This document shows, piece after piece, positions 19,936 to 22,430 of a stretch of DNA of 22,430 nt; position 1 is the stretch's first letter, and every line of letters starts with the position of its first letter. Below the pieces are notes generated by a model. The model saw only the letters and a program-made list of their open reading frames with translations. It searched no databases and had not been told where the DNA came from. Source of the stretch: a virus. Location: positions 1-22,430 of IMG/VR virus record IMGVR_UViG_3300011114_000075; one strand, given 5' to 3'. Both the position numbers and the translations under genes were made by a program.

Positions 19936-21252
19936 TCAAAATACACTTACTTGAAATCTTGGAGTATATTCAAAGAACATTCTCATTGCCAAACAATCAC
20001 TAAAATCTGGTGAACGACCTATTGCAGCTTTGACTTTATCCTTTGGTATTACTCCTTTCTTCATATCATTATCAACAGACTTTTGTTTCACTTGTTCTAG
20101 TTCCTGAATGATAGTTTGTTTTTGCTTCCCATCTGCTTGAATATAGACTTCTGCTTTATTAACTAAATCAGCTAATTTAAAATAGCATTGAGACTTTAAG
20201 TTATCAAAGTTTTCCTTTTGTCTAGTTATAGGGTTTACTAATGGAGAACTATTATTGACAAAGCCCTTGCATCGTAGAATATCAACCACACCCGCACCTA
20301 TGCCATCTTCATCTGCCACAATGTTTGATAATGGTACTTTATGTTCTAATGCAAAGTTCTTTATAAGTTCAGCAACTTCAACAATTGATTTACCATTGAA
20401 TTGATAAAGCCTAACACGAAACCCATTCCATATACCAATAACAGTACTATCATTACCAAAACGTGCCACATCACAAGTAATGTAAGCATCACCAATAGCA
20501 ACAAAAGTATTGGTAAAAGAGTCAAGTATTTTATCATAATCTATAAGTTGAGCAGGGTCATCTAAATATTCCCAGTTACCAAATAAAAGCCTTTCTTTTG
20601 ATACGCTATCTAATCCTAAAAGGTTTTCTTTATAGTGTTTAGATATGTACGGATTATCATCTATTAACGAAGCAATAAATCTTTTATTCTTAGCTATTAC
20701 TCCATCTTGTTCTGGTTTATAGAACTCAGAGTAAGTCCAATTCTTTGCAGGGTTACAAGTATAAAGAATCTTAGGTATTAAATCGTTTTGGTCCAGTTGA
20801 AATCTTATCCTTGACTTAATGATATTTCTAGCTTTGTCATCTACTTGGTTTGCCTCATCTATAAACGCATCGGTAATCTCTAATGAACCTAATTCATCAA
20901 AGTTAGGGTCGGAAGGGTAGGAGTAAAGGTCTTTGAGTAGGATAGTAGAACCATTAGGGAATTCTATGGTAGAAGATTGAGCATTGAATTTAAAATGCTT
21001 ATTGGCTTCTAGTCCTTGCATTTTAGCTATCTGGAAGAAGGAAACTAAGGTAGTTTCTTTTAGAGTTTTTAACACGGCTCTCCCAATTAGTCCTCTTGTA
21101 TTGGGATATTTTAATCTTTGTTTAAGTTGCCAGTAGCAACCTAACGCCGTTTTTCCCCCGCCTCAACCTGCCCCGCCTCCGAAAAGAACCTCGTTTGTGC
21201 GAGTATCTTCAAGAAGGTCAAGGGCAGTAGTTTGTTTTATTGATAGTTCCAT
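19936..21252 (-). CDS. terL: Terminase large subunit, interrupted by in-frame TGA at codon 30
   Basis: The packaging motor ATPase/nuclease, 438 codons before the stop. It begins MELSIKQTTALDLLEDTR at ATG 21250-21252, joined to the HNH stop as TAATG. Walker A reads LFGGGAG, then TGA (21163-21165), then GGGKTALGC. Removing six bases (TGAGGC) would give the usual FGGGAGGGKT. Walker B is FIDEA (D132, E133) and the coupling motif is YTCNPA. Nuclease acids are D261 (CDVARFG), D314/D316 (ADEDGIG) and D416/D419 (SPDFSD). The rest is intact. Initiation at GTG 21073-21075 would yield 379 residues without Walker A, so no ATPase. It may be an assembly error, a decayed gene or recoding. The real gene ends at TGA. 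Confidence 0.85.
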
Positions 21253-21752
21253 TAAATAAATTGCTTGTATGTCTTGTTTTGTAATATATCTTTTATAACC
21301 CATTCAGATACTTCGTATGCTTCAGCTAACATTTTTCTTGTTATAACATTTGGAGTATAAGTTTCTCTTATTTCAATTACTTGGTCTCTAGTTAAATGTT
21401 TATTTTCCCCTGAATAAAAAAAGAATCTACCCATCATTATTGAATGCTGAGTATTTTGCTTTGGTGTAACCCATTCAAGATTTTCAACTCTATTATCAGT
21501 CTTGATTGCGTTTATGTGATTTACTTGTGGCAAATTGTTTGGGTTAGGTATAAAGTTTTCAGCTACTAATCTATGTACTTTTCTTGTTACTAATTTACCA
21601 TCTTTCATTAAACCAACCCTACGATAACCTTTATTATCTGTTGCTGGTTTTAAGATTGCTTCTCTACCTTTTACTCCATATTGAGTTTTAGTTAAAATGT
21701 CTCCGTTTGGATATATCCAATAAAGACCTTCAAATCCTTTTAGTTCTTTCAT
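21252..21752 (-). CDS. HNH homing-type endonuclease (NUMOD4 + HNH_3)
   Basis: A 166-residue DNA endonuclease. The N-terminal NUMOD4-like segment is KGFEGLYWIYPNGDIL (5-20). The HNH_3 core is VHRLVAENFIPNP (H60), QVNHINAIKTDNRVENLEWV (N78, H79, N87) and NTQHS (H103). A C-terminal DNA-binding helix-turn-helix (about 120-162) reads LTRDQVIEIRE then LAEAYEVSEWVIKDILQNKT. Such genes are selfish and often sit beside the conserved gene they target. It lies between the two terminase genes, with its own promoter, and shares one base with the large terminase start. It is likely a free-standing mobile element rather than part of packaging, although HNH proteins near terminases can be needed for packaging in some phages. 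Confidence 0.88.
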   Translation of the reverse strand: MKELKGFEGLYWIYPNGDILTKTQYGVKGREAILKPATDNKGYRRVGLMKDGKLVTRKVHRLVAENFIPNPNNLPQVNHINAIKTDNRVENLEWVTPKQNTQHSIMMGRFFFYSGENKHLTRDQVIEIRETYTPNVITRKMLAEAYEVSEWVIKDILQNKTYKQFI

Positions 21753-21794: not shown

Positions 21795-22142
21795 TTATAG
21801 GCTTCCTGTTTTTTCAACGTAAGTTTTTTTCTCCTCCCAAACTACATTAAGTCCTCCTGATAGTTCTATCTCGTTGGTTTGTTTTGCTCTGCCTTCTAAT
21901 CGGTCAAGGATTTCCTGATAAGCCCTTATATCCGATTTCATTGCCTTTGCAATTATCTTCATATCTAGCTGCTCCGCTATTGTAAATTCTTCATCTTCGC
22001 CTGTAACAGGGTTACGCACTTTGGTAACTAATTGAAGTAAACGCAATAGTCTTGTTTTGCTATGTTCAACTCCTTTAGGTTTCCCTGCTGGGTTTCCACT
22101 TACTCCTTTTGGGAATGGTTTAAGATTTTGTTCATTTGCCAT
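21795..22142 (-). CDS. terS: Terminase small subunit (DUF5681-like)
   Basis: A 115-residue DNA-recognition subunit of the packaging motor. The N-terminal signature FPKGVSGNPAGKPKG at about 9-23 is the DUF5681 motif found in phage small terminases. Helices follow at about 28-40 (TRLLRLLQLV) and 58-90 (AEQLDMKIIAKAMKSD, AYQEILDRLEGRA), with a short C-terminal tail VVWEEKKTYVEK. It begins MANEQNL at ATG 22140-22142, 25 bases after a full promoter. It stands before the HNH and large terminase genes, as expected. Confidence 0.85.
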   Translation of the reverse strand: MANEQNLKPFPKGVSGNPAGKPKGVEHSKTRLLRLLQLVTKVRNPVTGEDEEFTIAEQLDMKIIAKAMKSDIRAYQEILDRLEGRAKQTNEIELSGGLNVVWEEKKTYVEKTGSL

Positions 22143-22167: not shown

Positions 22168-22198
22168 CAAAGTTAAACCTTAAACCATTGCAACCAAA
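22168..22198 (-). promoter_or_regulatory. Bacteroidetes-type promoter of the packaging/head operon
   Basis: On the minus strand TTTG (22198-22195), 19 bases, then TAACTTTG (22175-22168) are a full match to TTTG-N19-TAnnTTTG. The TAA of the -7 box is also the stop codon of the methyltransferase. The expected leader before the small terminase ATG is about 20 bases. Confidence 0.7.
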
Positions 22199-22430
22199 TT
22201 TGATGTGCTATTTGGGCAGTCATTATTGGGGGAACTGACATACCAATAAGATATTGTGGTCTTAATGTTTTAAAATCATAATCCATCGGAAATGTGCCTA
22301 TCATTTGAAATTCTTTATTTGATAAACTTTTAGGTTCAGAAACTGATATAAATTTTGCCCTATCAGTTGATGCAATAGTATTGCAAACATTATTATCATA
22401 TATAAACTTATTATTCCAATATGATTCTTT
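22173..22430 (-). CDS. C5 cytosine DNA methyltransferase, C-terminal fragment
   Basis: An open frame enters from the right edge and ends at TAA 22173-22175, giving 85 residues. It matches the end of the C5 methyltransferase fold. The motif IX-like LSNKEFQMIGTFPMDYDF corresponds to the 'RE..rLQgFP' segment. Motif X is YLIGMSVPPIMTAQIAHQI, corresponding to 'iGNsVpp..a..IA'. The usual Asn of motif X is Met here. The catalytic part (PCQ) lies beyond the window, so activity cannot be judged. Phage methyltransferases protect against restriction or regulate packaging or expression. It is upstream of the small terminase and contains that gene's promoter in its last codons. Confidence 0.8.
   Translation of the reverse strand, partial: KESYWNNKFIYDNNVCNTIASTDRAKFISVSEPKSLSNKEFQMIGTFPMDYDFKTLRPQYLIGMSVPPIMTAQIAHQIWLQWFKV

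Follow-up and report, generated by a model that had tools for sequence, protein, structure and literature searches.

The window, a virus record of 22,430 bases from IMG/VR, carries a stop codon within the Walker A loop of its large terminase gene (terL). Stops at this site in the terL of many related phages, often beside a gene for an HNH homing endonuclease, suggest natural, recurrent ribosome hopping. It is probable that the stop belongs to a short insert that is skipped by programmed translational bypassing (a 'stop-hop') and that shields terL from a homing endonuclease. That ribosomes hop here, that uninterrupted terL is cut and that the insert gives protection are what we infer from comparisons of sequences.

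The minus strand of the window encodes, in this order, a gene in the terS position, an HNH gene, terL and a portal gene. The first of these (21795–22142, minus strand) contains a DUF5681 domain (Pfam PF18932; E-value, 6 × 10−13) and is the next gene upstream of the HNH gene. Upstream of terS, the end of a C-5 cytosine methylase gene occupies positions 22173–22430 (Pfam E-value, 4 × 10−4, just below the cut-off). The HNH homing endonuclease gene (21252–21752, minus strand; 166 aa), found between terS and terL, has NUMOD4-like and HNH_3 domains according to Pfam, and its stop codon overlaps the start codon of terL (TAATG). On the same strand, terL starts with the ATG at 21252–21250 and ends at 19936. 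Its first reading frame (codons 1–29; 21166–21252, minus strand) is 96–100% identical at the DNA level among the phages with the insert of the window, and its resumed frame (19936–21159, minus strand) runs from the GGKT of Walker A to the stop and matches Terminase_3 (Pfam E-value, 1.4 × 10−9). From 21180 to 21148, the minus strand reads GGA GGC GGG GCA GGT TGA GGC GGG GGA AAA ACG (preceded by TTC). The preliminary description had reported an in-frame TGA at codon 30, inside the Walker A motif of an otherwise intact TerL with an intact start and overlap with the upstream gene, and all of this was confirmed: the TGA (21163–21165, minus strand) is followed by a reading frame that is intact over the 405 codons between the Walker A Lys and the terminator, and the upstream gene that shares TAATG with terL is the HNH gene. 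The proposed take-off codon, GGT (Gly 29; 21166–21168, minus strand), stands directly before the stop, as a Gly or Ala codon does in all insert types. The proposed landing codon, GGC (21160–21162, minus strand), is matched to the same tRNA-Gly and has matched counterparts in other types; reading would resume at the GGG that begins at 21159. The two codons are synonymous, not identical, and a hop between them would restore FGGGAGGGKT.

A pattern scan of IMG/VR returned 29 stretches, 17 of which proved to be the same terL with the same insert. The identical insert is thus found in 17 other contigs from 17 metagenomes (18 contigs with the window), so the six extra bases noticed in the preliminary description are neither a private mutation nor an error. 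Homology scans that were blind to the stop recovered the window allele, uninterrupted relatives reading FGGGAGGGKT, and further interrupted alleles. Two more pattern scans yielded additional insert types, as did a homology scan of another, more distant TerL superfamily (the second superfamily); about 20 hits of the later pattern scans were discarded as chance matches outside terL. Among 160 distinct TerLs, 36, including some retrieved by pattern search, are interrupted at the Walker A loop, with net inserts of 1, 2, 6, 8, 9, 10 or 16 nt, while the second superfamily adds net inserts of 5 and 13 nt. The insert was absent from 397 Flavobacteriaceae genomes, where the sole pattern match was due to chance, and none of the classifiable prophage relatives from genome contigs (39 loci fetched) has an interrupted TerL. 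A prophage TerL fragment with a TAA in its C-terminal part (L387, genome G003) probably comes from a decayed prophage. No isolate phage record with a Walker A stop insert was found; the records of 11b, phi10:1, Versailles, BS-TP1/TP3 and P12002L annotate a single TerL CDS across the site. Among the papers searched, no report of stop inserts in the Walker A motif of terL was found.

Besides that of the window, at least 14 insert types were found in the same loop of related TerLs. Net inserts across types range from +1 to +16 nt (1, 2, 5, 6, 8, 9, 10, 13 and 16 nt), so that all three frames are represented, and the stop is TGA, TAA or TAG. In every type, a Gly or Ala codon immediately precedes the stop; types G and H come from scans that required the stop, and the remaining types were also found without that requirement. 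Written as take-off / gap / landing-resume, the type of the window (A) is GGT / TGA / GGC GGG GGA AAA. Those that share its design are B1 (GGC / TGAATAA / GGT GGA AAA), B2 (GGC / TGAAT / GGY), C (GGT / TGAAG / GGC), the GGC form of E (GGC / TAACCAA / GGC or AGC), G (GGC / TGAATAAAAAAAA / GGT; L263), H (GGC / TAGCTA / GGC; L275), J (GGT / TAA / GGC; L291/L335), K (GCC / TA / GCT or GCC), L (GCT / TAA / GCG) and M (GGT / TGACTAAACT / GGA). In all of these, one additional codon for the amino acid of the take-off codon stands right after the gap, and a matched-codon hop would yield the canonical loop, FGGGAGGGK[TS], with nothing gained or lost; this includes the Ala versions GCC-TA-GCT, GCC-TA-GCC and GCT-TAA-GCG. 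The landing codon is only near-cognate in A' (GGT / TGA / AGC), in the AGC part of E and in F (GGT / TGAAAAT / TGC). Type D (GGG and one extra base, then TAA) would need a +1 slip instead of a hop. Type I (GGG / TA / GGW; L274, L286) is not explained by a matched hop, which would leave the Walker A loop one Gly short. A preference for GGY take-off codons was considered and found to be weak, as GGY already makes up 61–74% of the matching Gly codons in uninterrupted alleles.

The HNH protein of the window matches HNH_3 (E-value, 5 × 10−10) and, below the cut-off of 23.4 bits, NUMOD4 (21.7 bits; E-value, 2 × 10−4), a domain that scores 32.8 bits in L286. Its nearest solved structure is that of the HNH homing endonuclease I-HmuI (PDB 1u3e; E-value, 5 × 10−12). 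Of 32 interrupted loci, 11 have an HNH gene directly upstream of terL, vs none of 116 uninterrupted ones (p = 1 × 10−8); the counts for the second superfamily are 5 of 8 vs 0 of 50. Most interrupted loci are without an HNH gene. The 11 HNH relatives with at least 72% identity all have an interrupted terL (type A, B2, C or D) as their neighbour. Between the window and L017, identity is 94–100% across the HNH gene and up to terL codon 28, and falls to 64–88% after the insert. The HNH gene, the start of terL and the insert therefore form a co-conversion-like block, which moves nearly identical between diverged phages, and in L005, L058 and L081 the block is kept without the HNH gene. Sporadic presence and transfer together with flanking sequence, as expected of a homing endonuclease, were both observed for the HNH gene. 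From the absence of HNH genes beside uninterrupted terL (0/116), we infer that the enzyme would cut only the uninterrupted gene. On the TerL tree, at least 29 state changes were counted, gains and losses together, and the number of independent insert origins is uncertain because blocks move between phages.

More distant HNH genes (35–41% identity) are found upstream of terS in L046, L078, L089 and L105; in L046, L078 and L089 they accompany an uninterrupted terL, so this HNH family has other sites, too. In L263, an ORF of 68 aa without a Pfam match (positions 1837–2043) lies between terS and the type G terL, and is possibly an endonuclease remnant. Seven TerLs of the second superfamily (L316, L317, L318, L319, L329, L334 and L321) contain apparent inteins at the Walker A site; the frame upstream of SWLG ends with ..NNFIVTHN|S, and that of L321 with ..IIVHN|SGKS. 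The loop is therefore a hotspot for two kinds of mobile element.

An mRNA stem-loop (GAAGA..CTCG / CGAG..TCTTT) is predicted at terL codons 12–24 of the window (21183–21210, minus strand), ending 14 nt before the take-off codon, with a folding energy of −10.3 kcal/mol (z = −2.95). In the clade of the window, a stem-loop is predicted 14–19 nt upstream of the take-off codon in interrupted alleles only. The mean minimum free energy is −6.6 for 24 distinct interrupted sequences vs −1.3 for 44 uninterrupted ones of this clade (p = 1 × 10−10), and shuffling of synonymous codons gave stem-loop z-scores of −2.4 and +0.3, respectively; the difference in folding is confined to the stem-loop stretch. When the stem is kept in place, 97% of its paired cells hold, against 41–79% when it is slid. 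While the 3' arm (TGAG or CGAG) stays the same, it is paired with newly made 5' arms that encode different residues (ACT CGC, AAA CTC, TCT CAA and ACT CAA); in three sequences, one stem pair has changed from GC to AU. On a tree of 174 TerLs from both superfamilies, 13.1 of 19 independent pairs were concordant and 1.6 discordant (p ~0.004). The second superfamily by itself gave no enrichment of the stem-loop (p = 0.40), so its status as a universal feature was rejected and the claim is limited to the clade of the window.

The preliminary description had also listed a scar at a homing site among its possibilities, and this idea holds in part: HNH genes adjoin interrupted terL only, and the HNH gene, the first 28 terL codons and the insert move as a block. 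In its strict form, according to which the inserts are end-joining scars of homing-endonuclease cuts, kept for resistance only, with TerL made through weak, non-specific frameshifting, the explanation would account for both the association with HNH genes and the clustering of inserts at one site. It is nevertheless improbable, since random scars would not always make a stop the first new codon, nor would they usually add a matched codon, and in the clade of the window only interrupted alleles have the upstream stem-loop.

Counted from the Walker A Lys, interrupted alleles have the same 405–406 codons up to the stop as uninterrupted ones. Within types, dN/dS is 0.048 (A), 0.085 (B1), 0.074 (C), 0.058 (E) and 0.066 (D), and among uninterrupted alleles it is 0.067; purifying selection acts normally on the 405 codons downstream, as it does in uninterrupted relatives. 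Because the block is transferred between phages, the insert may be younger than some of the divergence downstream of it, and the linked codons upstream of the stop in types B and D are therefore the cleaner evidence of selection. In this upstream part, B alleles differ on average by 7.2 synonymous and 1.9 nonsynonymous codons, and D alleles by 5 synonymous and 0 nonsynonymous ones. The type C allele L136 has a second frameshift at about residue 61 after Walker A; this is an error of sequencing, or else the gene is truly broken.

A premature stop might mean that terL has been inactivated, in decaying or satellite-like phages that obtain intact TerL in trans. Standard decoding would indeed yield a peptide of only 29 residues, and the record of the window is incomplete, so that a second copy of terL could lie elsewhere. 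Against this stand the dN/dS values of 0.05–0.09 with the 405 intact codons, the many insert types, in each of which a Gly or Ala codon directly precedes the stop, and the identical allele in 18 contigs, a second lesion being found in L136 only. Inactivation is thus quite unlikely, and a decaying gene was rejected on the basis of dN/dS and ORF integrity; the recent inactivation considered in the preliminary description also conflicts with the 17 other contigs and with inserts in all frames at the same spot.

As another possibility, the TGA could be read through or suppressed, with addition of a residue (GGGAG-X-GGGKT). This would suit the window type, in which the downstream frame is in phase. 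It would, however, leave two extra residues in the P-loop, and type C has nearly the same upstream block with a frame-disrupting +8 insert. The TGA of terL is the sole in-frame stop across the 26 window genes checked, and TGA truly terminates seven other window genes. The genome of the window thus does not read TGA as sense, and genome-wide recoding was rejected. A search of the window for a tRNA gene or suppressor tRNA found none, and a search for known RNA families was equally negative. As readthrough also leaves the +1, +2, +5, +8, +10, +13 and +16 types unexplained, it is very improbable; of the readthrough or local bypass suggested in the preliminary description, only the bypass stands. 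Removal of the insert from the RNA, by a micro-intron or by RNA repair after nuclease cleavage, would give the canonical protein for any insert length and would fit the adjacent HNH gene. It predicts neither a stop right after the Gly or Ala codon nor a matched codon before the resume point, we know of no pathway that removes 1–16 nt from RNA in such a manner, and we regard it as highly unlikely.

The nine-base block GAGGCGGGG does occur twice, as the preliminary description had noted (21156–21164 and 21171–21179; 0.01 expected by chance), but the exact repeat is not universal: relatives that share the insert mostly read TGAGGCGGAGGA instead, so the proposed repeat-mediated insertion is not supported. 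A sequencing or assembly error or repeat-mediated slippage in the window contig, for which this repeat speaks, has a negligible probability, given the same insert in 17 independent contigs, mostly without the exact repeat, and other inserts at the same spot in all three frames.

Under programmed bypassing, peptidyl-tRNA-Gly would sit on codon 29 (GGT) while TGA occupies the A site, leave GGT, and re-pair with GGC three nt further on. Translation would then resume at GGG, so that nine nt (GGT TGA GGC) yield one glycine and the loop reads FGGGAGGGKT. With GGT in the P site, the predicted stem-loop (codons 12–24) would lie just outside the mRNA exit of the ribosome, where it may aid the hop. A possible reason why the insert is kept is the loss of a target site: without it, the HNH endonuclease, whose gene lies immediately upstream of terL or in competing phages, would cut the DNA that encodes Walker A. 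The endonuclease, the terL start and the insert would spread jointly by homing and co-conversion.

Programmed bypassing has so far been known mainly from T4 gene 60 and yeast mitochondria. It seems fairly likely that the Walker A coding sequence of terL has time and again been contested between phages and homing endonucleases, and that very short stop-containing inserts, hopped by ribosomes with Gly or Ala tRNAs, have arisen there repeatedly in diverse phages of the Bacteroidota type; these would form the first natural 'stop-hop' family, with many independent types. If so, the minimal rules of hopping could be tested directly on dozens of natural variants, with gaps of 1–13 nt, three stops, Gly and Ala codons and uninterrupted sister alleles, and the origin of bypassing would be linked to conflict with homing endonucleases. 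The observation is also a warning that gene callers split or discard such essential genes.

Among known systems, inteins have been described at the P-loop of TerL in mycobacteriophages (PMC5050341). These are likewise mobile elements with endonucleases that exploit the TerL ATPase site, but they are long and spliced at the protein level, whereas the terL inserts are non-coding and 1–16 nt in length. The HNH protein of the window shares its domain content and nearest structure (1u3e) with the I-HmuI-type HNH homing endonucleases with NUMOD; the latter sit in a group I intron, whereas the gene in the window is free-standing between terS and terL. Another bypass proposed for a phage terminase gene is tied to the codon UUA, not to a Walker A stop or an HNH gene. 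According to the literature, synthetic 'stop-hops' have been reviewed in E. coli reporters, and no natural in-frame stop-hop is known (PMC5009743). The terL of the window matches the design of these 'stop-hops', although the E. coli cases are constructs.

In T4 gene 60, a Gly take-off codon is directly followed by a stop, with a matched landing codon and a 5' stem-loop, and the proposed role of the insert is protection from a homing endonuclease encoded upstream (PMC5009743, PMC11194080). The terL of the window has the same combination of a Gly take-off codon with a stop, a matched landing codon, a predicted 5' stem-loop and an upstream homing endonuclease. No motif like the KKYK of the T4 gene 60 nascent peptide was seen in the 29 residues before the stop. 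The gap is 3 nt in the window (2–13 nt in other types) vs 50 in T4 gene 60, and the take-off stem-loop that T4 gene 60 has in its gap at the A site would find no room in 3 nt. The proposed terL bypass also recurs in many types and lineages, unlike that of T4 gene 60. Thus, the terL of the window may be regarded as working like T4 gene 60, and it is not classified as a gene 60 homologue because of its 3-nt gap without a gap stem-loop.
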